A DNA stretch of 64,000 nt from Eriocheir sinensis (taxonomy: Eukaryota; Arthropoda; Malacostraca; Decapoda; Varunidae). Below the pieces are notes generated by a model that worked only from the letters and a program-made list of their open reading frames with translations, had not been told where the DNA came from and did no database searches. The position numbers and the translations under genes are program-made. The stretch lies in the NCBI RefSeq assembly GCF_024679095.1, contig NC_066509.1, positions 22,258,479 to 22,322,478 on the forward strand, written 5' to 3'. Shown piece by piece: positions 18,417-61,030 of the stretch (positions within the stretch are counted from its first letter, which is position 1; the number at the start of each line of letters is the position of its first letter).

Positions 18417-19655
18417 ACATGGAAACATGGACTAGCAGGCAACAGAAAGCCTGTTGGCTCATAACAAGGCTGCCTGCGTTCAGTGATTTAATCAATCCCT
18501 TTGCCATAGGAGTGGCTTGCAGGGAAGGATTAAAGCACTTATGTACCTACTCTTGGGAACGTTCAGTTCACTCCCGATGCAGCAAAGTGGCGATCAATGC
18601 GTTTCTTGAAGGAGTTGATGGTCTCTGCGCTAACCACTTCTGCAGGAAGGCTGTTCCAGTGGCGAACAACTCTGTTCGAGAAATAACTCCTGCCGATGTC
18701 GGTATTGCATCGCTTTGCTTGAATTGTTTTTCCGTTTTTTCTTATTCTCAGGTTAGTTTGTAGCGTGAAGAGTTTGGAGTGATCAACGTTGCTGAGCTTG
18801 TTCAGGTACTTAAAGACTTGTATCATGTCTCCCCGCAGTCGTCTCTTTTCCAACGTGAAGAGGTTGAGTCGCTCGAGTCGCTCTTCATAGGGCTTCGTCC
18901 TCAGTGACGGTATCATCTTCGTGGCGCGGCGCTGTACTCTCTCAAGTAATTCAATGTCTTTCCTGTAATTAGGAGACCAGAATTGCATGGCGTATTCCAG
19001 GTGGGGCCTTACCAGCGAATTATACAAGGATAACATAACTCCTGGCATCTTGTATTCGAAGTTCCTCGATATGAACCCAAGCATTGTATTGGCTTTCTTA
19101 CAGGCGGATTTGCAGTGTTTTGTTTGTTTCAAGTCACTGCCGATGGTGACCCCGAGGTCTCTTTCTTTTTGCACTACATGTAGTGGTTTGCCACCCGTGT
19201 GGTATGTGTGGTTGGTGTTTCTGGATCCGATATGCATTACTTTACATTTGGTAGTGTTGAAGGACATCTGCCATTTTTCTGACCACCGAGTGATCTGGTC
19301 CAAGTCTCTCTGGAAAATTTCGCAGTCTGCCGTCGTGAGGGCCTTCCCATCCACCTTTGTGTCGTCGGCAAATTTTGAAAGATTGGATTTTAATCCTAGT
19401 TCTAGGTCGTTGATATATATGATGAAAAGTATGGGTCCCAGCACTGACCCCTGTGGCACTCCACTTGTGACCGAGAGCCACTCGGAGGCCTGTCCGTTGA
19501 GTACAACTCGTTGTTTTCTTCCAGTGAGCCAGTCTTTGATCCACGCTGTCAGATTGTCGCCTAATCCCGCCGACTTAAGTTTCTTGAGGAGTCTTTCGTG
19601 TGGCACTTTGTGAAAGGCTTTCTGGAAGTCTAGATATATAACATCACTCTGGATA
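18410..19655 (-). pseudogene. CR1-like LINE, 3' half of reverse transcriptase (interrupted by DNA transposon)
   Basis: A long minus-strand frame (stop at 18563-18565) reads upstream to 19655. In order it shows YLDFQKAFHKVPHERLL (RT block A), GVPQGSVLGPILFIIYINDL (block B), KFADDTK (catalytic FADD), ERDLGV, and the C-terminal HWNSLPAEVVSAETINSFKK. This is the classic CR1 ORF2 order. The 3' tail (18412-18430) has tandem octamers related to CATGTTTC. The start at 19606 is only an artefact: the frame continues to 19655, where the 7-kb transposon breaks in. Across the insertion the frame continues into the 26700-27050 segment. Confidence 0.92.
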
Positions 19656-20222
19656 TATTGCAGGAGCTAGCAGGGATTTATATAACATCTCAAGTACAAA
19701 AGGTTTGGGTGTTGCAATCATTAGTATACCCCTAGGAGACCACCGTTTGGTGATTCTTAAGTTCTGATTTTGGTGCGTTTAATAGGGGGCGCTCTTGAAA
19801 CCCCCCCAAAAAATGAATTTAAATTACACTTTTGAGTACATTGATAAAATTAGTGTCAAAAGTTTCGGTTTTACAGCCTGATTGCAGATAAGGCATTCTT
19901 AAATACCTAATTTGGTGCAAAGTCCATTTAAGAACGACCTAAAGATGGCGGTACTGTGACATTTAAATCACATGTTGAGTACATTGCTGAAACTTGGTAG
20001 GATTGTTTATCAGGACCTACAGATCAAGAATTAATCATTCTTAAGTGACAAATTTGGTGCAAAGCTCATTTAAGAACGACCTAAAGGTGGCGCTTCATAT
20101 GACGCGTTGAAGTCACTTCTCAAGTACATGTATGAAACTTGGTTAAATAATATTTTGGACCTTACTTATCAAGGATAGATAGTTCTTATATGATGACTTT
20201 GGTGCAAACCTCACTTAAGAGC
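19656..20222 (+). repeat. Left terminal inverted repeat of transposon copy 1
   Basis: This matches 26136-26699 inverted, with only scattered substitutions ('ggatttatataac' versus 'ggatttacataac'). Inside it, 'tttggtgc' recurs at 19769, 19911, 20053 and 20208, so the arm is built of tandem modules of 142, 142 and 155 bp. Each carries 'catttaagaacgacctaaag' or a variant and 'gtacat...tgaaacttgg'. Confidence 0.93.
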
Positions 20223-21238
20223 GGTCTGATGGTGGCACTCCTGATGTCATTGAATATTGACCATTTTGGGTAGTCCTAAGAAAAAGAAAAAAAGATTTTC
20301 TTCATAAAGTGTATTATAATCAAAACTGCAAATACATAACATACAGAACGTTGATACTGGTTATCATTTTAATGAAACATATTTTCCTCTGGAGTTATGG
20401 GACAAATATTCTGCAAGTTCTAAGGAAATTAAAGTAATGAATGTTATTTCCATATCAAACATTCAATTGCATGATTCTGATGCTAAAAGAGGATTTTGGT
20501 AAATTTAATTGATGGGGCACAGAATTACAGACCATGAGATAAGCATGTGAACATTTAACATTTTTAGTAAAATAAAGAGGATGAGCACTTCATGCCTGTT
20601 TAGTCCAAAATATACAGGATTACATCTCTCCTAATCATAGGCAAAGGCCTATAAAATAACAAGCATGTCTACACGAAATTAGGATTTATTATGAATATTT
20701 TAAATCAAAGTATGTCATGCTAATGTGTCATTTTCGGCAAAAATCTGTCTCAACTTGAGAATTGCTCAAATTACTAATTTTGACTAATTACAATATGACC
20801 CCAAGTCACTTTCTTATTTGAAGATTCTGTTGCCTACCCTTGGACTGTGTGAGGGTAGGATTATCTGAAATTATGATACAAGTTCCAGGTTTTGACACAT
20901 CTTTCCATATTGCAATTTCCAGTTGGACAAGTAGCACTACCCTGCCATTGGAACTCAGGATGTTAGCTTATATAAAGTCTGACTCACCTAGACAAAGCAA
21001 AGCTACATTTCCCAGCAGGTGATTATGAAATTATAATTTGATGGCTTGTTTACCCTCTCAAAAAAATTGTACATTTACTCTAGTTATGTATTGTGGGCAT
21101 GTGACTGTCATAGTAGATAATTACCGGTATTATAGAATTCCAAAATGCTGATGAGTCTGTATGTAAACAAGATCAAATCTGCCGATTAATACAAACAATG
21201 AAATTATCATACTCAGAATCTTCCAAATGTGTCAACGT
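20223..21238. other. AT-rich non-coding interior of transposon copy 1
   Basis: About 1 kb between the left inverted repeat and the 3' end of the nuclease frame. No ORF. It presumably holds the 3' untranslated region of the minus-strand gene. Confidence 0.6.
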
Positions 21239-22597
21239 CTAGTCATCCTCATCAGAACCAATTTCTTCATCAGATGATGCAACCTGCATATCAGCTTCTG
21301 CCTCTTCCTCGATTTCTTGTAGTTCTGATTCTTTTGGGATCAGACTGTCTGGGAGCTGCTCTCCATAAAACCAAATCAGTTTATACTCGCCGCCAAGTAA
21401 TTCCCAACCATCTTCTTCTGTTGGATGCTGTTCAAGATGTTGTTGATCTGCAGCCGCCCACATCTTTGCAACGAATGATGCACGCTTTATGTGGGCACTG
21501 ACTTCATCTTCACATGGTGCGAATCCACTGGCATCAATGCCGATCAAGTTGGAAAACAGACATTTTCCTCGCTTTGGTCCATAGACTATCATGAACTTCT
21601 GAAACCTGACCTCGCCAAGGCTTTTGTTCTTGTTTGCACCATAGATATCTGCAGTGAAACTAAAGAGGGTGGCTTTGGTTGCATCAGAAACAAGTGCTTC
21701 CCTTGTCATATTTGTGAAAGCATGCTGGTAGTCAGGTGTTTTCTCAAGCAGCTTGAATGGTCGTACTTTGCCTTTTTTTACAAAGGATGAAGTGTAATCT
21801 GATCCAGTAAAGGCATGAAAAGCAGGTAAAGCTGCACAAAGCTCTGATCCAAGCTCAGAATGGATAGCAGTTAAACTTAAGTACCGGCGGCTATTCTTTG
21901 CTGCTGTTCCAACATCCATCCAAAGTTTGCCCTTGAACTTGTTGCAGTGGTACAGGAGTATCACAGCTATGTCTGTGTCGGATGCTCTGACTACAATTTC
22001 GCTGCTGGCATTGTCACAAAATAATGAATGAAGACAGATTTTTGTGTCGGATTCTTCATGGTCATTGATTAAACTCTGAACAGCTGTGCGTTCTATCACT
22101 CCCTCCTGGACTTTAAAACGGTAGCATTCACCCGGGACATCTAGAATGACTTCATGGTGACCGAGAATGTCTACATAGCAGGGATCTTGCCATTCTTTGG
22201 CGAGAAACTGAGGCAGCTGCTTTTTGAATGATCTTGAGTTGAGAGCATCATTTAAATCTCTTGGAACTCGTCGCTGCTCAGGCCCAGTGATGACGAAAGT
22301 TCTGCAGTCAGCTCCTCTTCTGTTCCTTTCAGTGTCTTTTATGGATGGTTGTGGGTAGTCATCGAAGAGGATGTGGACTGACTTGGCTGGGGTTCGAAGG
22401 GATTGTAGAAGAATGCTCCTGGCGAGTCCCCCATAGGTTGGCGGCAGGTTTCCAGGCATGCTGTGCAGAAGAAACTGTCCATCTATTATGCAAGCATCGA
22501 TGGCTGTTGGTTTGCCATGATCTTTTACTCGGGCTTCCAAGATTCCAAACAATGCACTTTTATCTGTTTTGGCCATTACTTCATCTGGACTGGCCAT
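21239..22597 (-). CDS. C-terminal FEN1/XPG-like nuclease part of transposon protein (copy 1)
   Basis: A 452-codon frame ends in an acidic tail (SSDEEIGSDEDD) at TAG 21239-21241. It has the acidic pattern of the FEN1/XPG branch of the PIN nuclease fold: ACIIDGQ (D39), HILFDDYPQPS (D79-D80), HEESDT (181-185), ASDTDI (206-209) and TGSDYTSSFVKKGK (from 264). The last resembles the FEN1 'GSDY...G.G' metal-binding and helix-hairpin-helix junction. It aligns along its whole length with residues about 470-927 of the copy-2 protein (SVVDGGC, HEEADT, SSDTDV, TGCDFTSAFNRLGK). The ATG at 22595 is probably not the original start: homology to copy 2 continues upstream in another frame, so the full protein was much longer. 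Confidence 0.8.
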   Translation of the reverse strand: MASPDEVMAKTDKSALFGILEARVKDHGKPTAIDACIIDGQFLLHSMPGNLPPTYGGLARSILLQSLRTPAKSVHILFDDYPQPSIKDTERNRRGADCRTFVITGPEQRRVPRDLNDALNSRSFKKQLPQFLAKEWQDPCYVDILGHHEVILDVPGECYRFKVQEGVIERTAVQSLINDHEESDTKICLHSLFCDNASSEIVVRASDTDIAVILLYHCNKFKGKLWMDVGTAAKNSRRYLSLTAIHSELGSELCAALPAFHAFTGSDYTSSFVKKGKVRPFKLLEKTPDYQHAFTNMTREALVSDATKATLFSFTADIYGANKNKSLGEVRFQKFMIVYGPKRGKCLFSNLIGIDASGFAPCEDEVSAHIKRASFVAKMWAAADQQHLEQHPTEEDGWELLGGEYKLIWFYGEQLPDSLIPKESELQEIEEEAEADMQVASSDEEIGSDEDD

Positions 22598-22599
22598 AG

Positions 22600-23440
22600 T
22601 CAGTGGTACTGAGTAAGTGGATATTGCAGAACATGCTGCATATCAAGCTGCTTCTTGGTAGCAAGAACAAGGAGCCGACCAAACAGATTGCGTGTACCTA
22701 TGAGAGCCGCCACTTTATTGTTCCTCGCTCTGCGATTTTTTCCACATCCATCTTCAAAAGTCATAAATTTCTCCTTCTTGATGGGCCGCTCAGTTTTGGG
22801 GTCCTCTTTACATGACTGAATGAATTCCTGGTGTCTTTGTTTCCCTTTGGTAGGTACTCCCAGCAGGCTTTTCTTGATGTCTTCCTGGCAACCTTTCCAG
22901 TGCTGATGTTGTACAAAGTTTCTGGAGCAAGGTTTTCTTGGAAAGGATTATTGGTGTTGCAAATCTGTGTGATAATCTTCTGAAGGTCCGCATTATCCTC
23001 TCAATTCTTCTTGGGTGTAGTTCAGTTGCAATGTCTTCTTTTGTAATCAGTCCAGTCATTTCTAGTAGACTTGTGATGAATGAGGCTCTTGTGGCTTTCG
23101 TGACCATCCATCGCAATCTTGCCGAATAATCGTTCGTAAAGCTTGTGATTCCAGTCATCCGAGAAGCAGCATCTGCATTGATTGTCTGTTCCAGAGTCAG
23201 GTCAACTGGCATCCGACTGAAATCAGTATCTGTTATCCTAACACTGAAACACCCACTATTTAGAATGGCCTCAGCCCAGGATGGGTGTCATCAACATTTA
23301 GCAAATCCAGTTGGTACTTGGTCAGCCACCGTGAATAGTTGATGTGGCCAGTGGCGAAGAACAGATCAATGATTGGTGTCAGGGTGGAGATGAATAACCC
23401 CAGATCATTGGTCCGTATTGCTTTTTCTAGCCGGTGAAAA
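22600..23440 (-). pseudogene. Middle part of transposon protein (copy 1), frameshifted
   Basis: The 22808-23212 frame reads PVDLTLEQTINADAASRMTG, matching AVDLTLEQTVNKDAPSPMRG in copy 2. Further stretches (RATKMQ-like blocks, DMQHVLQYPLT versus DLQHILAFPIT) lie in other frames. Several single-base shifts break it between 22610 and 23440, where copy 2 is continuously open. No catalytic motif is recognised in this portion. Confidence 0.75.
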
Positions 23441-24147
23441 TGTTGATGTAGCCGACGTACATCATCCAGAACTGTGCTGTGACTCCATGAACACCAGAGA
23501 GGGTTGCTTGTGTGAACTCATCATATTGCTTGGCACAATTCCTGAAGAGGTCTGTTCCGATGACTTGACTGAGGTCTTCCTCTGCTCCAGGGATTTCATT
23601 GGTTGGCACCTTTGACATCAAGGTCTGGATTCCTTCCCAATATAATTTTTCTGGAGAAATGCCTGGAAATGCAATACTTCAAATCCAAGTGCAAGGAGAG
23701 GGTGGATTCTTTGCATCTGTTGAAGTGCTTTCCAGATATCAGGCCATTCAAAGAACCATGAGCTATCACCTCAGTTTCTGTCAATATAGACATCCCTCCT
23801 GATTCTGCCACCAATTTTCCTATTGCCTTGAAAAATGCCATCTCAATGTGGAAGGCACCCATCATGATGAAGATAGTATCAAATCTTGGAGATTCAGTGG
23901 CCTGTATCTGCATAGCTGGTTTTGCAGCATTAAGGTCATACGTCACAACTCCATAATCCTGATGGCATTCTTCAGCACACTTCTGTGTTGTAACCAGGGT
24001 GTGACGAACAACTGACAAACTGGTGATTGGTTCTTTCAGGTTTGGCATGTAGCGGACCTCTTGTTTAGGAAGTTTATCCTTGTAAAACAGGGAGTTGAAG
24101 CCAACCCACATAGGAACAGCATCTGCATCAAGCGCATGGCTCATCAT
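23427..24147 (-). pseudogene. Transposon protein (copy 1), 'FHIEMAF' region
   Basis: Two frames (23596-24147 and 23427-23621) cover the homologue of residues 1-200 of copy 2: FIMMGAFHIEMAFFKAIGK versus IILLGNFHLEMAFYAGIGT, and EFTQATLSGVHGVTAQFW versus YLQNVMDGQHGSTAAYW. The G-x-FH-x-EM motif is a hallmark of a widespread invertebrate transposon protein family I know from cnidarian, echinoderm and crustacean genomes. The ATG at 24147 overlaps the stop of the previous frame by 4 bp. In the third frame, just upstream codons read AKDLDYVWMMSHALD, so one indel near 24165 caused the break. Confidence 0.78.
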
Positions 24148-25220
24148 CCAAACATAATCCAGATCTTTTGCTCGTCTTGTACTTTATCTTCTGGAAAGGC
24201 GAATACATCACTATTCGCGTAATGGAATCTTGTCATCTTGGGGACACCAAAATATGGTTCTATGGATCCATCAGACACAGTGAGAGACCGCTTCTTCTTG
24301 GTCTTCTTCACACCTGCTGTGCTTTTTCCAATTACATCATCACTTGCAGCTACTATGCTCTGGTCAGGACCAGAAGAAACAAGATTTTCAACTGGTATAT
24401 TCTGGTACAGTATACCCATGGTGTCATGAAGAGTGTCACTCCCAGATAGTGTCTGTGTCAGCTCATCAAAATTGTCGAAAGCCAGTCCCATAGGAAGCCC
24501 AGGTATTGTATCCTCAGGACAAGCTTTTTCTCTGCCCTTCAGTGCCTCGGCTGTGGCAGTTTCCAGTTCTTCTAGGCAACTATAGTTAACACAGTGTCCA
24601 AACCTGTTCATAACCTGCACCAACTTCTTGCTGCCTGTGATAGATTTGAGAGCCATTCCAAGGGTAATATGCTTTGGTGGTTTTGCTCTCCCTCTTTGCA
24701 CGATGTAAAGGGCATCTTGGCTGGAGGAATCAATCCGCCTCTGTACTCGCTTCCCACAATCCTCTGCAATTTTTCCAGTGTATAGCACACGGAAAAATAA
24801 CTTAACAGCTTCTGGTGTTGTGGTATCGCCATCCTCAGTTTGACAGTTTGACAGTTTGACTGTAAGAGCATTGGAATGATGGAAATAGAAGTACCGCCAG
24901 GGTTTCACCTTAGAATCATGTAGAGTTGGATTCTCAGGAAGATCTTTCCTAGGTGCATTCAACAGGTCTTTGCGGAGTTGAAGGGCAGCTTTGGTCAGGA
25001 TTCTTTCCTCAGACTCTGAGTAGTCAAAGGCTACTCGAACAGAATCATCAGCAATTTCAGAATTGTAAAGAATACTACCCAGCTTCCTACCTGCTGGACA
25101 TTGCACTTTGATTTTTGACCCAAACTTTCCTGTTAGGTTTCTTGAGAGACTAGACTTTTGCATCGGTGTCTCATCGGCACTGACACAGAAATCTACATAA
25201 CGGTCGTATAAAGAAGTCAT
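24144..25220 (-). CDS. N-terminal half of transposon protein (copy 1) with DNFD motif
   Basis: A 358-codon frame whose counterpart is absent from copy 2. Near residues 246-270 it has LAFDNFDELTQTLSGSDTLH followed by DTMGILYQN. This DN-x-D ... TLSG-x-x-T-x-H ... GI-x-x-Q signature recurs in the same widespread invertebrate family. The aspartates are candidates for transposase catalysis, which is inference. Upstream codons in another frame (GEKRAELMTSLYDRYVD) show that the ORF once continued N-terminally and is cut by an indel near 25240. Confidence 0.75.
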   Translation of the reverse strand: MTSLYDRYVDFCVSADETPMQKSSLSRNLTGKFGSKIKVQCPAGRKLGSILYNSEIADDSVRVAFDYSESEERILTKAALQLRKDLLNAPRKDLPENPTLHDSKVKPWRYFYFHHSNALTVKLSNCQTEDGDTTTPEAVKLFFRVLYTGKIAEDCGKRVQRRIDSSSQDALYIVQRGRAKPPKHITLGMALKSITGSKKLVQVMNRFGHCVNYSCLEELETATAEALKGREKACPEDTIPGLPMGLAFDNFDELTQTLSGSDTLHDTMGILYQNIPVENLVSSGPDQSIVAASDDVIGKSTAGVKKTKKKRSLTVSDGSIEPYFGVPKMTRFHYANSDVFAFPEDKVQDEQKIWIMFG

Positions 25221-25960
25221 TAATTCTGCTCGTTTCTCACCAATAACAACTTTCTCAACATAATAATGGATGTTTGTAATGGAAACTGCTGATTTCTGTT
25301 CATTGTCACTAGTCTTTGAAGAAATTCTTCCAGCTTTAAGAAGGTAAGCGCTCTTGCAAGAATGGTGGTACTTGTGTCCTTTGATACGAGGTCACCGCTA
25401 ATGACTTTCGATAGAACCTGCTGATCCTGCAGAAGTTTAGCAGCTTCTAGAATCCTTTCTGTCACTGTTAATACCATATTGTCACCGAGGTATTCAAAAG
25501 TCCCGTCCTTTTTCTTTTTCTTTCTGAATTGCAGAATATACATAGGGAGGTAGTAGATGAGCAGATACATTATCCTTCACTGTTGTGGTCGGAGTGGATG
25601 ACCGAAGGTGTGGTGAACACCTCTCGGCAGAAGGTGTTTTGGACTGTATTGCAGTGAAACTTTGATAACATGACACATGGTATCCTTCAGTCTCTGCAGG
25701 ATTCTCTGGTAACTGACAACTACATCATAGTACAATGATGTGCGAAATTGAGGTTTCTCACGCCTGCTTGTTGCAGCGGACTTAACAACAGACCAGGTTT
25801 TCTCATTAAACGACAGAACGTCAGTTCGAGGTTTCTTGGAGAGTTTCTTATCTTTGGATCTGTGGAGGATACACTCTGACCTGGGCGACATCAGTAATAG
25901 AAGGTGTAGGCTCCATTTCCAGTCTGAAATAAAAGGGGTAATCCTAAGAACTAGGTCCAC
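25220..25960 (-). pseudogene. N-terminal zinc-finger-like region of transposon protein (copy 1)
   Basis: Three frames cover this part. They contain SECILHRSKDKKLSK, later YHVSCYQSFT, then basic EKEKGRDFEY-like sequence. The C ... H-x-x-CY-x-x-FT arrangement resembles the Cys/His N-terminal module of the family. Frameshifts at about 25500 and 25700 break it. It may be the true N-terminus; 'agtctgaaataaaagg' near 25920 gives no clear ATG upstream. Confidence 0.55.
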
Positions 25961-26135
25961 ACATAAGTTATCATTATGTCACTTTCCAAATCATGTTAAT
26001 GGGAATAAAGGGGAATTTTGAAATAGGGTTTTCTCCTACCTCCATGGTTATATCGAATGATATAAAAATTTTCTTATTCTTACACGACTAATTTAACCAC
26101 CTGCATACCCTGCTTGATTTTACCTTCAATCCAGT

Positions 26136-26699
26136 CTTAAGTGAGGTTTGCACCAAAGTCATCATATAAGAACTATCTATCCTTGATAAGTAAGGTCCAA
26201 AATATTATTTAACCAAGTTTCATACATGTACTTGAGAAGTGACTTCAACGCGTCATATGAAGCGCCACCTTTAGGTCGTTCTTAAATGAGCTTTGCACCA
26301 AATTTGTCACTTAAGAATGATTAATTCTTGATCTGTAGGTCCTGATAAACAATCCTACCAAGTTTCAGCAATGTACTCAACATGTGATTTAAATGTCACA
26401 GTACCGCCATCTTTAGGTCGTTCTTAAATGGACTTTGCACCAAATTAGGTATTTAAGAATGCCTTATCTGCAATCAGGCTGTAAAACCGAAACTTTTGAC
26501 ACTAATTTTATCAATGTACTCAAAAGTGTAATTTAAATTCATTTTTTTGGGGGGTTTCAAGAGCGCCCCCTATTAAACGCACCAAAATCAGAACTTAAGA
26601 ATCACCAAACGGTGGTCTCCTAGGGGTATACTAATGATTGCAACACCCAAACCTTTTGTACTTGAGATGTTATGTAAATCCCTGCTAGCTCCCGGACTA
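26136..26699 (-). repeat. Right terminal inverted repeat of transposon copy 1
   Basis: This is the inverted counterpart of 19656-20222 with the same tandem modules. Homology ends at about 26136 ('cttaagtgaggtttgcacc'). The outermost bases, read inward, are TAGTCCGGGAGC. Confidence 0.93.
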
Positions 26700-27055
26700 A
26701 TATGATTATCCCAGTTTTCATAGATACCTTGGAAGAAGTCCAATAAATTGGAAATTATGTTGTTGTCTTCAAGGAACCTAACGAGATTGTCTCTGATGAT
26801 ATTCTCGAGGATTTTTCCAGCCACTGAGGTCAAGCTGATTGGTTTGTAGTTTAGGGCCACGCTTTTGTCTCCCTTTTTGTAGATAGGTGTTACATTCGCT
26901 TGTTTCGAGTCTTTTGGGACTTTGTTTTGTTGTAGTGACAGATTGTAGATGGCGGTGAGTGGCTTGAGGATTTGCTGCTTGAGCTCCTTTAGCAGCCTGG
27001 GTGACAAGTCGTCGGGTCCGGTGGACTTGTTTGTCTCGAGGTTGTCTAGGAGAAG
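26700..27055 (-). pseudogene. CR1-like LINE, 5' part of reverse transcriptase (continuation of 18410-19655)
   Basis: The minus-strand frame reads TGPDDLSPRLLKELKQQIL, then VTPIYKKGDKSVALNYKPIS and LTSVAGKILENIIRDNLVRF. These are the CR1 finger motifs SPGPDG ... PIFKKG ... NYRPISLTS. Next comes NNIISNLLDFFQGIYENWDN; the usual QHGF...RSCLTN block between IIS and LLDFF is missing (small internal deletion). It begins abruptly at the AGT/GGA microsatellite (27055), so the endonuclease and ORF1 are absent. Confidence 0.9.
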
Positions 27056-27402: not shown

Positions 27403-28078
<676 letters not shown>

Positions 28079-33611: not shown

Positions 33612-36899
<3,288 letters not shown>

Positions 36900-42200: not shown

Positions 42201-42722
42201 TAGAGTGGGAGCCCAGAGCATTTATTCATGTGAAAGACGGCAAAAGGTTCAACAATATTAATAATATCCTCGACCCTCATATATTACATTTCTGTATTGC
42301 TGCCGGGGTGTAGCCGGGGCTATGACCCCCAAATACCCCGTAGTAGGAGGGTGAAAAATGGCGGTTATTCATGTGAACTCCGGCAAGGTCAAAACTAGCA
42401 TACAATGGTGCACAGGACTCATCTGACGACTGAATGGAGAATAACAGTAATTTTGAGTGGGGCGTTGCCCCCGACAGCAAGATTCACTCCCAGAGCGAAA
42501 ATGACATTTAATTATGTGAAAAGCGGCAAGGCTGCAAATGGTCTCAATTAGTAGTTTGGAGTGTACTACATGCTAAATAAACAGTGACAGCTATTTTGGG
42601 TGGGGATGTGACCCCGACAGCAACCCGACCCCACTCCCGGGGAAAAATTGACATTTTTCATGTGACCAGTGCCAAGACTAGAAATGGTTTCCATGTGTTC
42701 TTAAAAGTCTCCTACACATTAA
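42201..42722 (+). repeat. Left terminal inverted repeat of transposon copy 2
   Basis: Pairs with 46635-47310 inverted. Identity is so high that the same 67-codon frame occurs on the outward-facing strand of each arm (42277-42480 minus, 47031-47234 plus). Modules contain 'ccccgacagcaacccgaccccactcccgggg'-type sequence. Confidence 0.93.
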
Positions 42723-42796
42723 ATTCACAGTGACATCAATTTTGGATGGGGATTTGACCGCAAAAGCAACCCTACGTCAAACCCGGGTAAAGAGCA

Positions 42797-42906
42797 TATA
42801 TTTATTCAAATGAAAACAATCAAGGGGAGAAATAGCTTAAAAAAAACAATGACAACTTTTGGATTTCCCCTTGATTGTGTCAGGGATATCAATTAGTAGC
42901 AGTGGC

Positions 42907-42986
<80 letters not shown>

Positions 42987-43038
42987 GTTGTGACTACCTC
43001 TGCTCCCGTGAGCAAGGAATGATGTTGTACAGGAAACC
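42797..43038. other. Small hairpin and (ATT)n tract before the transposon ORF
   Basis: 'acaatcaagggg' (about 42806) pairs with 'ccccttgattgt' (about 42867). An (ATT)n tract at 42908-42986 follows. In copy 1 the corresponding place codes for the N-terminal half of the protein, so a deletion is likely here. Confidence 0.8.
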
Positions 43039-45822
43039 ATGGTTAGAACACTTAAAGTTGCGAAAGAGATGAAACAAGACTATGCCACAGTTTCATATGA
43101 TTTGGCTGTTGCTTTGAAAGCATTTTCCATTCAAGCTCTCCAAGCCCCATTATTTGACAACCTGATAATTTTACTGGGGAATTTCCACCTAGAGATGGCT
43201 TTTTATGCAGGAATTGGAACATTTATTGCAGACTCTGGGATTGACTACTTATTAACTGAAGCTGGAATCCTGGCCACTGGATCTCTTGTAGGTTTTTTGA
43301 AAGGCAAGTTCTATAATCGCTGTACCAGGATCCATCAAATCATAGCAGCAGTTATGGAGCGAGCCTTGCTGGCCAATTTCAAGGAAACTGTGACAGAAGA
43401 AGAAGCCCTAACCTTGCAAGAAACTTTGTCTCATTCCTCTGATGATGTACAGAAAATGGAAGAAGTTGTTGATGTTCCTATCTTCAAAGACCTGCTGGTG
43501 AAGTATGAGCAATATCTGCAAAATGTCATGGATGGTCAACATGGTAGCACAGCAGCATACTGGGGGATTTATGTATACCTCATCAACAGAGTACACAGGG
43601 AACTGCAGAGAGCAGTGCGCACTAACAATGTCATGAGGTACATTCAAATCCTTCCCTATGTTATTGAGACCTTCTTTGCTCTAAATCGCCCAAATTATGC
43701 AAGATGGGGGTCTCTTTTCCTTTCAAAACTTCGACAGATGGACCCTAAAGCTTTGGATATTCTACAGGCAGGAGCCTTCTCTATCCGACGCACCAGTAAA
43801 TCCTACTCAAGATGTGCAGTTGATCTTACATTGGAGCAGACTGTTAACAAGGATGCTCCATCACCTATGAGAGGAATAACTGCTTTCAGAAACTCTGAGA
43901 GTGCCTTCAGAAGATGGTCCATTACTTTGACTCAGCGTGGTATGGCCTTATCAGAATTACGGCAACTTGTAGGCCTTCATTCGGGAGAACATCCAGCCAG
44001 TCAGTCACAGCCATGGAGAGTGAGGCGTGACAACAATGATATTGAAACCCTTGCCAGAGTCATTAATGATACCTGTAACCCATTTGCTACTCACTCACCA
44101 CATGAACTAGTCAATCTTGCAACAGGTAAAGAAGCAAAGGAAGAAACGAAAGTTTACCTTTTAAGTACACTGAAGCGTGGAGTAGACCTTCGACAGAAAT
44201 TTGAGACAGAGTGTGAAGCAGACAATTCAAGATTTCTGAAAACTGTAAAACGAGCAAAGGTGTTCAACTTTGCTACAGAAAACCAAAAGCCTCAATGTTC
44301 TGGCAAAGATAAAGCTAAGGCTAAAGCAGAAGAAGGGGTCAGAGATGTTTTTGCAAGAATTCTAGCACTGGAAAGTAAAACAAATGTCACATGTGACCTT
44401 CAACACATTTTAGCTTTTCCAATTACAGATGTGCCACTCTCCCTGGCTCATAGCGATGGAACTCCCAACAAGACAGACAAGGCATGTCTCACTAAATTAC
44501 TTGAGGGAAAACAGGACACAATTCTGACTGACATTAGTCTGCCTCCAGTCAGTGCAAGTGTGGTTGACGGTGGCTGCATTCTACATGAAACTCTACTTCG
44601 CCACAGCAAGTCAACCTATGGAACTATGGCAAGGGATTTGCTTGTCAAAGTATGCTCCTTTAGAGGGGAAGAAATTCACCTTGTGCTTGATAAGTATGTG
44701 TCCCCTTCAATTAAAGATCAGGAAAGGAAATCCCGGGGTCGAGGTAATCAACCCACATTTGTTATCAGTGGACCAGATCAAGCACAGCGGCATACTGGAA
44801 TAGATCTCCTGAAGAACAGCGCATTTAAAGAAGAATTTGCACACTTTATTGTCCAAGAATGGAGGAAGCCACATTATGGACCAATTTTGGGAAGGAAAAT
44901 TTTGTACGTGTCACATGGTGGTGAATGCTCAAGGTTCATGTTCACTGAGACAGAGGATGGTAACCAGATTCAAGTTGATGAACCAAGTCACCTACAGGGT
45001 CAGCATGAAGAAGCCGACACTCTCATTGCTTTTCATGTGAGGACGATTCACAAGGGGGCCATTATGGTAAGGTCGTCTGACACCGATGTGTTGGTTATCC
45101 TTATTGGTCTTGTAGGACGATCAGATTGCAGGTCTTTGATAATGGACTATGGTTCAGGTAATCATCGCCGTTACATCAATGTTTCTTTTATTGCTGGTCG
45201 ACTTGAAGAAAAGCGCTGTGGCATGAGCGAGGCTCTCATAGGATTTCACGCTCTTACTGGATGCGATTTTACATCAGCTTTCAACAGACTGGGAAAGGTA
45301 AAACCATTTAAGCGATTGGAAGCAATTACTGCAGAACTTCATGTAAAAGCCATGCGTTCCCTGACATCCGAAGTAGACATGATCGCTGTGACTTGCTATG
45401 TGTGTGCACTGTATGGTTTTAACACTTCAGACATTAATGAAGCAAGGTACAAGGCTTTCATGCATATGTGCGGGGGAAAGGAAGCAAATCCACTGGCGAG
45501 GATGAAGAAGATTAACTGTGCTTCCCTTCCTCCATGCTATGAAACACTTAGTCATCATATCAAGAGAGCAAATTTTGTGGCTAAAATGTGGAAAAAAGCT
45601 GATGAAGTTAATCCTACTGGTGGGGAGAGTCCAGTCAACTATGGCTGGATGAAAACTGAGAATGGTCTCCAGCCTGTATGGTTCACGGGAAATCCTGTCC
45701 CCAGCAATATAACTAAAGCTGACAGTGGGGAGGATGGGGTCCAAATCATGGCTGACGAGGATCAGGATTCAGACAGTGTATGGAGTGAGGATAGTGATAA
45801 CGGCGAGGAAGAAGACAAATAA
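43039..45822 (+). CDS. Intact 927-residue transposon protein with FEN1/XPG-like nuclease domain
   Basis: A single open frame from an ATG in strong Kozak context (A at -3, G at +4; in-frame stop about 30 bp upstream) to TAA 45820-45822. Residues 40-60 hold IILLGNFHLEMAFYAGIG and residues about 150-175 YLQNVMDGQHGSTAAYW. CAVDLTLEQTVN lies near 260, followed by a helical middle. The C-terminal half carries SVVDGGC (D near 508), HLVLDKYVSPSIKD, QHEEADT (655-661), SSDTDV (679-684) and TGCDFTSAFNRLGKVKPF (from 740), matching the acidic-residue order of FEN1/XPG nucleases. The last 30 residues are acidic. The likely role is DNA cleavage in transposition, acting in the nucleus. It lacks the zinc-finger-like and DNFD regions seen in copy 1. 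An AATAAA lies about 85 bp after the stop. It could be a truncated transposase, or a stand-alone product if those regions are supplied by another copy. Confidence 0.85.
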   Translation: MVRTLKVAKEMKQDYATVSYDLAVALKAFSIQALQAPLFDNLIILLGNFHLEMAFYAGIGTFIADSGIDYLLTEAGILATGSLVGFLKGKFYNRCTRIHQIIAAVMERALLANFKETVTEEEALTLQETLSHSSDDVQKMEEVVDVPIFKDLLVKYEQYLQNVMDGQHGSTAAYWGIYVYLINRVHRELQRAVRTNNVMRYIQILPYVIETFFALNRPNYARWGSLFLSKLRQMDPKALDILQAGAFSIRRTSKSYSRCAVDLTLEQTVNKDAPSPMRGITAFRNSESAFRRWSITLTQRGMALSELRQLVGLHSGEHPASQSQPWRVRRDNNDIETLARVINDTCNPFATHSPHELVNLATGKEAKEETKVYLLSTLKRGVDLRQKFETECEADNSRFLKTVKRAKVFNFATENQKPQCSGKDKAKAKAEEGVRDVFARILALESKTNVTCDLQHILAFPITDVPLSLAHSDGTPNKTDKACLTKLLEGKQDTILTDISLPPVSASVVDGGCILHETLLRHSKSTYGTMARDLLVKVCSFRGEEIHLVLDKYVSPSIKDQERKSRGRGNQPTFVISGPDQAQRHTGIDLLKNSAFKEEFAHFIVQEWRKPHYGPILGRKILYVSHGGECSRFMFTETEDGNQIQVDEPSHLQGQHEEADTLIAFHVRTIHKGAIMVRSSDTDVLVILIGLVGRSDCRSLIMDYGSGNHRRYINVSFIAGRLEEKRCGMSEALIGFHALTGCDFTSAFNRLGKVKPFKRLEAITAELHVKAMRSLTSEVDMIAVTCYVCALYGFNTSDINEARYKAFMHMCGGKEANPLARMKKINCASLPPCYETLSHHIKRANFVAKMWKKADEVNPTGGESPVNYGWMKTENGLQPVWFTGNPVPSNITKADSGEDGVQIMADEDQDSDSVWSEDSDNGEEEDK

Positions 45823-46634
45823 TGTGATATTTCCCTTCCTACTATACCTAAATTATTTTCAGCTGATGTAATTCTAGGTCACTTCAGCTAATTTTTCAGA
45901 ATGTAATAAAATAACATAGAACTACAATGGGTCTGCACCATAAGAGCAACAGGTTTAGATCATTATACATTCATTTCAAAATGTTCATAACAGCTGATTA
46001 AACAGGGAAAAAAATATTCAAATCTATTGTCAGCTGTAAGCAACTTAGGTCTGATACATCTTGAAATGCTTGAGACACATAAAATATGACTGTGTATGTG
46101 ATAATCCTCTAGCTTCTGATAATGTTATTAGTTAAGTATGTGCGTGGCTAATGTATTCAGTATTGTATTTGTTTTCGCAAGTTTGTGTTTTTTTTCTTTT
46201 AAGTAAGTAAAGACATTTGCTTTTTGAATTAAACTATTTAAAGTATTGTTCAGTTTCTTGATCTTCATAAATTTTAAAATCAGTAATCCAGATAAGTAAG
46301 GTACAATTGAAGCTTATCATTTAGGAATGCATTGCTGAATTTTTTTTCAATAAACATTATCATTCTTAAGATTAATGTTTTCTTATTTGTATAGTACACC
46401 TGTTTATATTATTATATTTGATTTTCACTTAATAATAAACGATTTTCACTTCATTATATCTCTTCTCTTGACTGATCTTCATGGGTTAGTGCTGCATCCA
46501 AAATGTCTGGCACTGCTCATTTAGTGTAAAAGGGACTATGTAACCTTGTTACTTTACATGCATTCATATGACATTTCTACCCCTGGGGTTGCTCCTGGGT
46601 TTCAGAGGTCCAAACAAATTTGCTTTTATTATGA
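45823..46634. other. AT-rich 3' region of transposon copy 2
   Basis: No ORF. AATAAA-type polyadenylation signals occur near 45905 and again between 46340 and 46440. Confidence 0.6.
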
Positions 46635-47310
46635 ACTCAGTGTGTAGGAGACTTTTAAGAACACATGGAAACCATTTCTAGTCTTGGCACTGGTCACATG
46701 AAAAATGTCAATTTTTCCCCGGGAGTGGGGTCGGGTTGGGTTGCTGTCGGGGTCAAAGCCCCACCCAAAATGGCTGCTATTGTTCATTTAGTGTGTAGGG
46801 CACTCCAAACGACTAATTGAGACCATTTGCAGCCCTGCCGCTTTTCACATGAAAAAATATCATTTTGGCCCCGGGAGTGGGGTCGGGTTGCTGTCGGGGT
46901 CAAATCCCCACTCAAAATAGCTGTCACTGTTTATTTAGCATGTAGTACACTCCAAACTACTAATTGAGACCATTTGCAGCCTTGCCGCTTTTCACATAAT
47001 TAAATGTCATTTTCGCTCTGGGAGTGAATCTTGCTGTCGGGGGCAACGCCCCACTCAAAATTACTGTTATTCTCCATTCAGTCGTCAGATGAGTCCTGCG
47101 CACCATTGTATGCTAGTTTTGACCTTGCCGGAGTTCACATGAATAACCGCCATTTTTCACCCTCCTACTACGGGGTATTTGGGGGTCATAGCCCCGGCTA
47201 CACCCCGGCAGCAATACAGAAATGTAATATATGAGGGTCCAGCATATTATTAATATTGTTGAACCTTTTGCCGTCTTTCACATGAATAAATGCTCTGGGC
47301 TCCCGGTCTA
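46635..47310 (-). repeat. Right terminal inverted repeat of transposon copy 2, with one extra module
   Basis: Modules of 147-152 bp recur ('gggagtgggg' at 46721 and 46873, 'gggagtgaatc' at 47020). The right arm has one module more than the left, so it is about 154 bp longer. Confidence 0.92.
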
Positions 47311-53503: not shown

Positions 53504-54328
53504 GTTCCACCTGGTTCTCTGTCCGGTGTTAGTGTGCTCCATCCTGCCTTAGCAAAGGTTATGATTCCACCTCTCCACCTGGTTCTGTCAGGTGTTAGTG
53601 TGCTCCATCCTGCCTCAGCAAAGGTTATAATTCCACCTCTCCACCTGGTTCTCTGTCCGGTGTTAGTGTGCTCCATTCTGCCTCAGCAAAGGTTATAATT
53701 CCACCCCTCCACCTGGTTCTCTGTCAGGTGTTAGTTTGATCCATCCTGCCTCAGCAAAGGTTATAATTCCACCTCTCCACCTGGTTCTCTGTCAGGTGTC
53801 AGTGTGCTCCATCCTGTCCAAACAAAGGTTATAATTCCACCTCTCCATCTGGATATAATTCCACCCCTCCACCTGGTTCTCTGTCCGTTATTAGTGTGCT
53901 CCATCCTGCCCCAACAAAGGTTATAATTCAACCTCTCCACCTGGTTCTCTGTCTGGTGCTAGTGTGCTCCATCCTGACCCAGCAAAGGTTATAATTCCAC
54001 TTCTCCACCTGGTTCACTGTCTGGTGTTAATGTGCTCCATCCTGCCCCAGCAAAGGTAATAATTCAACCTCTCCAGCTGGTTCACTGTCTGGTGTTAGTG
54101 TGCTCCATCCTGCCCCAACAAGGTTCTACTTCCACCTCTCCACATGGTTCTCTGTCTGGTGTTAGTGTGCTCCATCTTGCCCCAACAAAGGTTATAATTC
54201 CACCTTTCCACCTGGTTCTCTGTCAGGAGTCAGTGTGCTCCATCCTGTGTCCCAGCAAAGGTTCTAATTCCACCTCTCCATCTGGTTCTCTGTCAGGTGT
54301 TAGTGTGCTCCATCCTGCTCCAGCAAAG
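53504..54328 (+). repeat. 68-bp minisatellite, segment 1 (about 12 copies)
   Basis: Unit: 'ggttctctgtctggtgttag', then 'tgtgctccatcctgccccag', then 'caaaggttataattccacct', then 'ctccacct'. Copies differ by a few percent. The unit is not a multiple of 3, so ORFs run only two to three units. Confidence 0.96.
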
Positions 54329-57090: not shown

Positions 57091-59394
57091 CTCCACCTCT
57101 CCACCTGGTTCTCTGTCTGGTGTTAGTGTGCTCCATCCTGCCCCTGCAAAGGTTCTAATTCCACCTCTCCACCTAATTCTCTGTCTGGTGTTAGTGTGCT
57201 CCATCCTGCCCCAGCAAATGTTATAATTCCAAATCTCCACATGGTTCTCTGGCTGGTGTTAGTGTGCTCCATCCTGCCCCAACAAAGCTTATAATTCCAC
57301 TTCTCCACCTGGTTCTCTGTTTGGTGTTAGTGTGCTCCATCCTGCCCCAACAAAGGTTCTAATTCCACCTCCACCTGATTCTCTGTCTGGTGTTAGTGTG
57401 CTCCATCCTGCCCGAACGAATATTCTAATTCCACCTCTTCACCTGGTTCTCAGTCAGGTGTTAGTGTGCTCCATCCTGCCCCAACAAAGGTTCTAATTCC
57501 ACCTCTTCACCTGATTCTCTGTCTGGTGTTAGTGTGCTCCATCCTGCCCCAACGAATATTCTAATTCCACCTCTCCACCTGGTTCTCAGTCAGGTGTTAG
57601 TGTGCTCCATCCTGCCCCTACAAAGGTTCTAATTCCACCTCTCCACCTAGTTCTCTGTCAAGTGTTAGTGTGCTAAACCCTGCCTCAACAAAGGTTCTAA
57701 TTCCACCTCTCCACCTGGTTTTCTGTCTGGTGTTAGTTTGCTCCATCCTGCCCCGGTAAAGGTTTAAATTCCACCTCTCCATCTGGTTCTCTGTCTGGTG
57801 TAAGTGTGCTCAATCCTGCCCCGGCAAGGGTTATAATTCCATATCTCCACCTGGTTCTCTGTCTGGTGTTAGTGTGCTCCATCCTGCCCCAACAAAGGTT
57901 ATAATTCCACCTCTCCACCTGGTTCTTTGTCTGGTGTTAGTGTGCTCCATCCTGCCCCGGCAAAGGTTATAATTCCATTTGTCCACCTGGTTCTCTGTCC
58001 GGTGTAAGTGTGCTCCATCCTGCCCCGGCAAAGGTTATAATTCCACCTCTCCACCTGGTTCACTGCCTGGTGTTAGTGTGCTCCATCCTGCCCCAACAAA
58101 CGTTATAATTCCACCTCTCCACCTGGTTCTTTGTCTGGTGTTAATGTGTTCCATCCTGCCCCGGCAAAGGTTATAATTCCATCTTTCCACCTGGTTCTCT
58201 GTCTGGTGTTAGTGTGCTCCATCCTGCCCCGGCAAAGATTATAATTCCACCTCTCCACCTGGTTCTCTGTCTGGTGTTAGTGTGCTCCATCCTGCCCCGG
58301 CAAAGGTTATAATTCCACCTCTCCACCTGGTTCTCTGTCTGGTGTTAGTGTGCTCCATCCTGCCCTGGCAAAGGTTATAATTCCATTTCTCCACCTGGTT
58401 CTCTGTCTGATGTTAGTGTGCTCAATCCTGCCCCGGCAAAGGTTATAATTCCACTTCTCCACTTGGTTCTCTGTCTGGTGTTAGTGTGCTCCATCCTCCC
58501 CCAACTAAAGTTATAATTCTATCTCTCCACTTGGTTCTCTGTCTGGTGTTAATGTGTTCCATCCTGCCCCGGCAAAGGTTCTAATTCCACCTCTCCACCT
58601 AGTTCTGTCTGGTGTTAGTGTGCTCCATCCTGCCCCAGCAATGGTTATAATTCCACCTTTCCACTTGGCTCTGTATCTAGTGTTAGTGTGCTCCATCCCG
58701 CCCCAGCAAAGGTTCTAATTCCACCTCTCCACCTGGTTCTGTCTGGTGTTAGTGTGCTCCATCCTGCCCCAGCAAAGGTTATAATTCCACCTCACCACCT
58801 GGTTCTCTGTCAGGTGTCAATGTGCTCCATCCCGCCCCAGCAAAGGTTCTAATTCCACATCTCCACCTGGTTCTCTGTCTGGTGTTAGTGTGCTCCATCC
58901 TGCCCCAACAAAGGTTATAATTCCACCTCACCACCTGGTTCTCTGTCTGGTGTTAATGTGCTCCATCCTGCCCCAACAAAGGTTATAGTTCCACCTCTCC
59001 ACCTGGTTCTCTGTCTGGTGTTGGTGTGCTCTATCCTGCCCCAGCAAAGGTTATAATTCCACCTCTCCAATTGGTTCACTGTCTGGTGTTAGTGTGCTCC
59101 ATCCTGCCCCAACAAAGGTTCTAATTCAACGTCTCCAATTGGTTCTCTGTCTGGTGTTAGTGTGCTCCATCCTGCCCCAACAAAGGTTCTAATTCAACCT
59201 CTCCACTTGGTTCTCTGTCTGGTGTTAGTGTGCTCCATCCTGCCCCAGCAAAGGTTATAATTCCACCTCTCCTCCTTCTCCTCCGTCTGGTGTTAGTGGA
59301 CTCCATTCTGCCGCAGCAAAGGTTCGAATTACACATCTCCACCTGGTTCTCTGTCTGGTGTTAGTGTGCTCCACCCTGCCCTAGCAAAGTGTAG
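57091..59394 (+). repeat. 68-bp minisatellite, segment 2 (about 34 copies)
   Basis: Same unit as segment 1. Neighbouring copies share variants in blocks (for example 'ccccggcaaagg' in 57950-58450, 'ccccaacaaagg' in 57340-57560), which indicates local homogenisation. Confidence 0.97.
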
Positions 59395-59399
59395 TGCGG

Positions 59400-59621
59400 C
59401 GACGGCCTGATGAACGAGCCTCCCATAACCCACTTAGCCAGTGGGGTACCTCTTTGGCCGACTCGGTAAGGAGTGGCTCTCCCGTCACGCTGGTCGCGGT
59501 TCAATCCCAGGCAGCCGGGGAATACCCTCACTCTTGATTAATTTATCGTGTTATTTCGATACACGCAGAGGCCGTGTTGAAATAGGAAGGATTTAGAAAA
59601 GAAGCTCGTCGGGGCATTACA
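59400..59621 (+). mobile_element. tRNA-derived SINE inserted in the minisatellite
   Basis: A 222-bp insert flanked by the 5-bp duplication CAAAG (59395-59399, 59622-59626) that splits one 68-bp unit. It has RNA polymerase III promoter boxes at tRNA spacing: A box 'tggccgactcgg' (59455-59466) and B box 'ggttcaatccc' (59498-59508). The tRNA-unrelated 3' body runs to 'gggcattaca'. Confidence 0.88.
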
Positions 59622-59626
59622 CAAAG

Positions 59627-60460
59627 GATCTAATTCCATCTCTCCACCTGGTTCACTGTCTGGTGTTAGTGTGCTCCATCCTTCCCCAACAAAGGTTATA
59701 ATTCCACCTCTCCACCTGGTTCTCTGTCTGGTGTTAGTGTGCTCCATCCTGCCCCAGCAGAGGTTATAATTCCACCTCTCCACCTGGTTCTCTGTCTGGT
59801 GTTAGTGTGCTCCATCCTGCCCCGGCAAAGGTTATAATTCCATCTCTCCACCTGGTTCTCTGTCTGGTGTTGGTGTGCTCCATCCTGCCCCGGCAAAGGT
59901 TATAATTCCACCTCTCCACCTGGTTCTCTGTCTGGTGTTAATGTGCTCCATCCTGCTCCGGCAAAAGTTATAATTCCACCTCTCCACCTGGTTCTATGTC
60001 TGGTGTTAATATGCTCTATCCTGACCTAACAAAAGTTATAATTCCAACTCTCCACCTGGTTCTCTGTCTGATGTTGGTGTGCTCTATCCTGCCCCAGCAA
60101 AGGTTGTAATTCCACCTCTCCACTTGGTTCTCTGTCTGGTGTTAGTGTGCTCCATCCTGCCCTAGCAAAGGTTCTAATTCAACCTCTCCACTTGGTTCTC
60201 TGTCTGGTGTTAGTGTGCTCCACCCTGCCCCAACAAAGGTTCTAATTCCACCTCTCCACCTGGTTCACTGTCTTGTGTTAGTGTGCTCCATCCTGCCCCA
60301 GCAAAGGTTATAATTCCACCTCTCCACCTGGTTCTCTGTCTGGTGTTAGTGTGCTCCATCCTGCCTCAGCAAAGGTTATAATTCCACTTCTCCACCTGGT
60401 TCTCTGTCTGGTGTTAGTGTGCTCCATCCTGCCCCGTCAAAGGATCTAATCCACCTCTTC
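59627..60460 (+). repeat. 68-bp minisatellite, segment 3 (about 12 copies)
   Basis: Continues the unit split by the SINE and ends at an inversion point. Confidence 0.96.
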
Positions 60461-60464
60461 ACCA

Positions 60465-61030
60465 GCAGGTGGAGAGGTGGAATTATAACCTTTGCTGGGG
60501 CAGGATGGAGCACACTACACCAGACCGCTAACCAGTTGGAGAGGTGGAATTTTAACCTTTACCAGGGCAGGATGGAGCACACTAACACCAGACAGAAAAC
60601 CAGGTGGAGAAGTGGAATTATAACTTTTGCTGGGGCAGGATGGAGCACACAAACACCAGACATAGAACCAGGTGGAGAGGTGGAATTTGAATCTTTGCTG
60701 GGGAGGATGGAGTACACTAACACCAGACAGAGAACCAGGTGGACAAGTGGAATTATGGCTTTTGCTGGGGCAGGATGGAGCACACTAACACCAGACAGAT
60801 AACTAAGTGGAAAGGTGGAATTAGAACCTCTGCTGGGGCAGGATGGAGCACACTGACATCAGACAGAGAACCAGGTGGAGAGGTGGAATTAGAACCTTTG
60901 CTGGGGCAGGATGGAGCACACTAACACCAGACAGAGAACCAGGTGGAGAGGTGGAATTATAACCTTTGCTAGGGCAGGATGGAGCACACTAACACCAGAC
61001 AGAGAACCAGGTGGAGAGGTGGAATCATAG
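60465..61030 (-). repeat. 68-bp minisatellite, inverted segment (about 8 copies)
   Basis: From 60465 the same unit runs in the opposite orientation ('aggtggagaggtggaatta', 'aaccaggtgg'). The junction 'ccacctcttcacc-agc-aggtggagaggtgg' (60451-60480) is itself a hairpin. Confidence 0.97.

Follow-up and report, generated by a model that had tools for sequence, protein, structure and literature searches.

Positions 19656–26699 of a 64,000-nucleotide window from Eriocheir sinensis (contig NC_066509.1, positions 22,258,479 to 22,322,478 of the forward strand) hold a complete DNA transposon of 7,044 bp, inserted in a CR1 long interspersed nuclear element (LINE). With good confidence, we read it as a recently inserted cut-and-paste transposon of autonomous type, probably an AcademX element, whose single protein of ~1,540 residues would combine a Cys/His region, a DUF6589 DDE (Asp, Asp, Glu) transposase core, and a FEN/XPG-like nuclease. 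The features of the element and of its host LINE are collected in Table 1.

The ends of the element can be read from the host sequence. Excising the element together with one ATA, which joins position 19655 to 26703, restores an open CR1 frame (IISNLLDFFQGIYENWDNHIQSDVIYLDFQKAFHKVPH), and all seven CR1 paralogs that were read are uninterrupted at the insertion site, that is, they are empty sites. The target triplet is ATA in six of these paralogs and ATG in the seventh (L164). They come from a genome search with the joined flanks, in which 40 of 1,769 candidates were scored, giving at least 41 rows; 40 rows span the junction and seven were read. Relative to 29 of the 41 rows, the host CR1 copy lacks ~42 bp at a distance of ~50 bp from the junction. 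An earlier note on this DNA had proposed exact ends inside a restorable CR1 frame and a 3-bp target duplication; both proposals are borne out, the former by the joined frame and the seven paralogs and the latter by ATA at both flanks and by the other copies of the element. Two different placements of the ends were rejected. A 4-bp duplication (ATAT) puts the ends out of register, and neither copies nor relatives match over 4 bp in any case; inner-only ends starting at GGAGC were discarded, since both the CR1 frame and the remaining copies show that the element includes the outer 7 bp.

The terminal inverted repeats, put at ~565 bp in the earlier note, measure 578 nt and are 98% complementary, with two differences between the arms over arm positions 8–565. 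Three positions of the outer 7 bp are mismatched between the ends (TATTGCA versus TAGTCCG), and this left/right pattern is identical in five of the six copies found in the genome, the sixth (C61) having an altered right end. The right end TAGTCCGGGAGC resembles the ends of relatives, while the left end TATTGCAGGAGC deviates. Each arm also contains three subrepeats of ~143 bp built around 57-nt cores, which are possible candidates for transposase binding sites.

The genome copies were retrieved with the arms, in a search whose 12 matches were all scored and correspond to the six copies; these counts are lower bounds. Two copies, C1850 and C860, have flanks that are 99.7–99.9% identical and are therefore taken as one locus that was assembled, or is present, twice, so that the six copies represent five loci. 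Four of the five loci share common ends and perfect 3-bp duplications (ATA, GTA, TAC, and TTA); the earlier note had asked whether other copies differ in their ends or lack duplications, and at these loci they do not. The family is young and recently inserted, because its copies are 99.2–99.9% identical and the arms of one copy differ at few inner positions. No shortened derivatives were revealed by the arm search, within the same lower bounds. The window copy, alone of the six, carries a 75-bp in-frame insertion that runs into TCAAACTG repeats and contains a GT...AG stretch.

The gene of the element occupies the minus strand, from a start codon at ~25916, placed by tblastn of the database protein P0001, to a stop at 21239. 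Its ~1,540 codons bear out the single large minus-strand gene of ~1500 codons noticed earlier. P0001 is an unbroken relative of 1,539 residues that is 95% identical to the window protein, and its numbering is used below. A read-through of the gene retrieved 30 homologs and a profile at least 74, from hosts that we take, by their genus names, to be ants, beetles, butterflies, an aphid, a coral, a hydrozoan, and a hagfish, the last being Myxine glutinosa (P0061). Three zinc-ligand-like motifs near the N-terminus (HxxC, CxxC, and HxxC) are conserved at 94–100% in the 18–23 sequences having the column, and this Cys/His region is likely to bind zinc and recognise DNA.

The middle of the protein matches Pfam PF20231 (DUF6589). 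The read-through, with its 12 frame breaks, scores 20.4 bits (E=2.4e-4), below the family cut-off of 27 bits, whereas P0001 scores 28.6 bits, above it. The match recurs in 25 of the 30 homologs at E<=0.1, and when eight pieces of the gene were scanned separately, two had weak DUF6589 matches (E 0.06 and 0.016). A match to DotZ in the gene pieces (E 0.25), and the single match of two homologs in an NCBIfam scan (E 0.041), are at chance level and were set aside. Aspartates D458/D461 and D638 and glutamate E888 are the candidates for a DDE triad, and the span from the second Asp to the Glu overlaps the DUF6589 match; the candidate D, D, and E are invariant in all sequences having the respective column (27, 29, and 30). 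DUF6589 is thus likely a DDE transposase core, as judged from sequence conservation. The DNFD...TLSG and FHIEMAF motifs are present as well, and these, the Cys/His-like N-terminus, and an acidic C-terminal pattern, all pointed out in the earlier note, are conserved in the homologs. In two very divergent members (P0066 and P0091), a Cys-rich C-terminal stretch bears a weak resemblance to the tesmin/TSO1 CXC domain (E 3.5 and 0.67).

The C-terminal region is a probable, not a proven, FEN/XPG-type nuclease. FEN/XPG nucleases carry seven acidic residues in a characteristic order, and the seven acids of P0001 (D1126, D1166, E1269, D1271, D1294, D1296, and D1354) follow this order, each being 93–100% conserved. 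For profile comparison, 37 C-terminal segments were kept from 43 matches to a C-terminal model among 91 family proteins. Animal XPG proteins (47 taken of 120 listed, 44 passing the motif filter, and 37 with the N-part used) made a weak profile partner by themselves, and FEN1 was therefore added, as a set of 80 stretches (L041–L120) out of at least 119 from a pattern scan; nearly all are titled archaeal and two Chloroflexi, and 51 gave an open reading frame passing the motif and length filter. The combined FEN and XPG profile scores 29.9, whereas the shuffles average 17.1, and none of 200 column shuffles reaches the real score; the corresponding counts are one of 200 for FEN1 alone and two of 200 for XPG alone. 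The alignment covers the GxDY segment in register, and the I-part alone scores 24.7 (0 of 200 shuffles). Elsewhere in the protein, in its N-terminal and central regions, the best match to FEN/XPG has P=0.073. The ordered acids and the column shuffles thus favour the FEN1/XPG-type C-terminus that the earlier note had suggested.

Three matches to XPG_I below the cut-off were also noted in the genome (C12, C57, and C46 at 19 bits). C12 and C57 were rejected as transposon copies, the family motifs being absent by eye from both reading frames; C12 reads like what we presume to be an asteroid-type host gene. The XPG repair protein of this 1.77-Gb genome shares 83–84% identity, over the region searched, with two proteins of the mud crab Scylla, in keeping with a brachyuran crab as the probable host.

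Relatives were sought in the same genome by protein search, in which 30 of 2,143 candidates were scored and 18 loci fetched. Paired long repeats are present at 11 of these loci, one of which (L020) is cut off at the end of its stretch, and absent at seven. All 11 readable relatives, ten loci and a second element in the window, have TAG...CTA ends and an exact 3-bp duplication. For the relatives, the search for TAG and CTA was confined to a few bases around the repeat ends and so was not blind; in four of the ten loci (L014, L015, L016, and L029) the paired repeats extended 1–4 bases beyond the ends given. The best inverted-repeat pairs of the relatives with paired ends measure 439–1,119 nt. 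Eight of the ten readable loci are present in a quick tree, where they fall in five separate lineages (L019 and L026 were not included), which suggests that TAG...CTA ends and the 3-bp duplication characterise the group as a whole.

The second element, at window positions 42201–47310, is distantly related to the first and belongs to a common superfamily with it. Its repeats (42201–42838 and 46669–47310) are 88% alike over 644 columns and end in TAG...CTA, and it is flanked by an AAC duplication. An open stretch of 936 residues (43012–45822, plus strand) matches only residues 613–1538 of P0001, without the N-terminal part, and is 74% identical to P0029, which also lacks that part. The suggestion that the window element may be a new branch is not supported, because close relatives occur in the same genome and in other animals. 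The hagfish protein P0061 is 62% identical to P0001 over one third of P0001. In the quick tree, where 33% of columns are filled, it groups within the window family's clade and separately from the insect proteins that are named, a placement that may reflect horizontal transfer or sparse sampling. A scan of viral contigs for relatives gave 92 pattern matches, none of them confirmed.

This large and mostly unnamed animal superfamily is probably the AcademX lineage, where it is placed by duplication length and probable nuclease rather than by protein alignment. The nuclease of AcademX is of an XPG-like kind. In the part of PMC10045372 available to us, AcademX is described as nuclease-bearing with target duplications of 3 or 4 bp, and AcademH, the other Academ lineage, as carrying a helicase with duplications of 9–10 bp. 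Compared by description only, the present elements resemble AcademX in the 3-bp duplication (four of five loci and 11 of 11 readable relatives) and the probable nuclease; they differ from AcademH both in duplication length and in that neither the read-through nor the 30 homologs have a Pfam helicase match. TAG...CTA ends and DUF6589 are not described for Academ in the accessible portions of the sources compared (PMC4455052, PMC10045372, PMC10294476, PMC9587614, and PMC10799480). DUF6589 itself is a family of unknown function in Pfam, and is tied here to transposons with defined ends.

Other superfamilies with a DDE core were compared as well, given the assigned D and E. KolobokE, KolobokD, and KolobokP are likewise DDE transposons with an accessory nuclease, according to the available text of PMC9587614, but their nucleases differ. 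The same text gives C/DxxH between the second D and the last E as a signature of Kolobok, hAT, P, MuDR, and Dada; the present family has GxFH instead (GAFH, residues 664–667 of P0001). For EnSpm/Mirage/Chapaev and Transib, the portion of PMC12730594 that we consulted lists C(2)C and H(3-4)H in this interval, whereas a single Cys (C712) is conserved at 85% or more in the span here.

A mechanism can be proposed from these features. The transposase may bind the subrepeats of the arms, and its DDE centre would join the 3' ends of the element to the target with a 3-nt stagger. The FEN-like domain would cut the non-transferred strand or 5' flaps, and such cutting could complete the excision and leave ends that can be repaired.

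Several observations weigh against this overall reading of the element. The locus of C61, one of the five, lacks a duplication and has an altered right end: beyond GCTAGC it continues as CCCAGAACCA rather than TCCCGGACTA (L013), and it is the only one of the six copies without a duplication. Eight of the 18 related loci are unscored, seven having no paired repeats and one running off its stretch. The DDE residues were assigned by conservation alone. At the C-terminus, block shuffles reach the real score in one of 200 cases for the combined profile and one of 200 for FEN1, but in 83 of 200 for XPG, so the XPG match is local to one motif. The N-part is weak (score 16.1, reached by 17 of 200 shuffles, and by 39 of 200 against XPG), and hhalign probabilities are low, at 3–9% for the C-terminus or the I-part and even lower for the N-part. 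None of the gene pieces, the read-through, or the 30 homologs matched a Pfam XPG model; among the 30 members, the other weak Pfam matches were Pox_D5 in two (best 0.012) and single matches to Polbeta, MAGSP, NYN_YacP (0.044), and SL4P. Searches of PDB sequences gave the C-terminal open reading frame one chance-level DEAD-box helicase (E=0.54), and the profile none. If these results are followed, the C-terminus could be an unrelated acidic region that resembles FEN/XPG in short motifs. We consider this very unlikely, since all seven acids stand in order, the GxDY segment is in register, and nearly all column shuffles score lower. The broken gene invites a further doubt, namely that it is a truly decayed pseudogene of a dead family. 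Besides the 12 breaks between its open pieces, the window reading has one more near the start codon, and none of the six copies has the whole gene in one frame, the longest open stretch being 1,123 residues (C1850). Against decay, 36 of the 44 single-base deletions relative to the majority of the six copies fall within homopolymers of at least three, a class holding 19% of bases; insertions number six. Eight deletion sites are common to two copies each. The locus present twice (C1850 versus C860) shows six substitutions yet 16 gap columns, and the unbroken P0001 likewise speaks against decay. We infer, short of proof, that most frame breaks are long-read assembly errors; the flanking CR1 frame, which has no breaks, counts against this inference. 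Decay of the gene and death of the family appear quite improbable.

The role of the nuclease and the rank of the group can each be argued differently. FEN1, XPG, and GEN1 cut flaps, bubbles, and junctions. The FEN-like domain might accordingly act outside excision, trimming 5' flaps at the 3-nt gaps or resolving cruciforms of the inverted repeats, with the DDE core doing all the cutting; the long inverted repeats of the relatives with paired ends are in keeping with such a role. We hold this to be a plausible but less favoured possibility, as the fusion of the nuclease to the transposase and the conservation of its seven sites fit a role inside the reaction at least equally well. Compared with FEN1/XPG nucleases, the domain is alike in the seven acids and the GxDY register, and different in its fusion to a transposase and in having no family-level sequence match. 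As to rank, the group could be a superfamily separate from Academ, with TAG ends and 3-bp duplications, sharing with it only the idea of a nuclease. Academ was compared by description and not by sequence, and DUF6589 is not named in the literature searched; set against this, a 3–4 bp duplication together with a nuclease is what PMC10045372, in the part available, reports for AcademX, and a similar size, 5,565 bp on average, is given for curated Academ elements of bivalves in the consulted part of PMC10294476. According to the latter text, Academ is found almost exclusively in bivalves within the molluscs studied. A separate superfamily is rather unlikely on this balance. We regard as fairly improbable the stronger proposal that DUF6589 elements constitute an independent superfamily, with TAG...CTA ends, 3-bp duplications, repeats of 0.4–1.1 kb, and one zinc-DDE-FEN polypeptide whose flap endonuclease domain makes the second-strand cut. 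Placement in AcademX, with the nuclease acting within the transposition reaction, is preferred.

Table 1. Features of the transposon and its host CR1 LINE, in window positions
Feature	Position	Strand	Evidence
Complete DNA transposon, 7,044 bp	19656..26699	gene on -	CR1 frame, seven empty paralogous sites, common ends in four of the five other copies
Left 3-bp target duplication, ATA	19653..19655	.	joined CR1 frame, other copies
Right 3-bp target duplication, ATA	26700..26702	.	joined CR1 frame, other copies
Left terminal inverted repeat, begins TATTGCAGGAGCTAGC	19656..20233	+	arm alignment
Right terminal inverted repeat, begins (read inward) TAGTCCGGGAGCTAGC	26122..26699	-	arm alignment
Three ~143-bp subrepeats, left arm; 57-nt cores at 19894, 20036, 20181	19894..20237	+	
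Three ~143-bp subrepeats, right arm; cores at 26118, 26263, 26405	26118..26461	-	
Gene for the probable transposase-nuclease, ~1,540 codons in 13 open pieces separated by 12 breaks	21239..25916	-	
Zinc-ligand-like motifs HxxC 25668-25679, CxxC 25531-25542, HxxC 25356-25367	25356..25679	-	
75-bp in-frame insertion, window copy alone of six	24840..24914	-	copy alignment
Candidate DDE: D 24465-24467, D 23935-23937, E 23189-23191	23189..24467	-	conservation
Probable FEN/XPG-like nuclease region	21797..22483	-	profile comparison and conservation
Seven acids of this region	22481-22483, 22361-22363, 22052-22054, 22046-22048, 21977-21979, 21971-21973, 21797-21799	-	
CR1 LINE, 3' part of interrupted frame	18563..19655	-	RVT_1 E=4.9e-24; joined frame
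CR1 LINE, 5' part of interrupted frame	26703..27049	-	joined frame

Elsewhere in the window, a perfect AC dinucleotide array of 336 copies (27404–28076) adjoins the CR1 LINE, and a long open frame of 887 residues at 34140–36803 encodes a CR1-type reverse transcriptase. A 68-bp repeat forms a large array of 49 copies at 57092–60463, after which comes an oppositely oriented array at 60466–61029; the 68-bp unit recurs at 53506–54328. Rfam at gathering thresholds gave no match anywhere in the window.

The hitherto uncharacterised DUF6589 is now tied to transposons that have exact ends, target duplications, and relatives. With named residues for both the putative transposase and the putative nuclease, the question of why a DDE transposase would carry a flap-type nuclease becomes testable, and this young family, with its near-identical copies in a single genome, offers a good place to begin.

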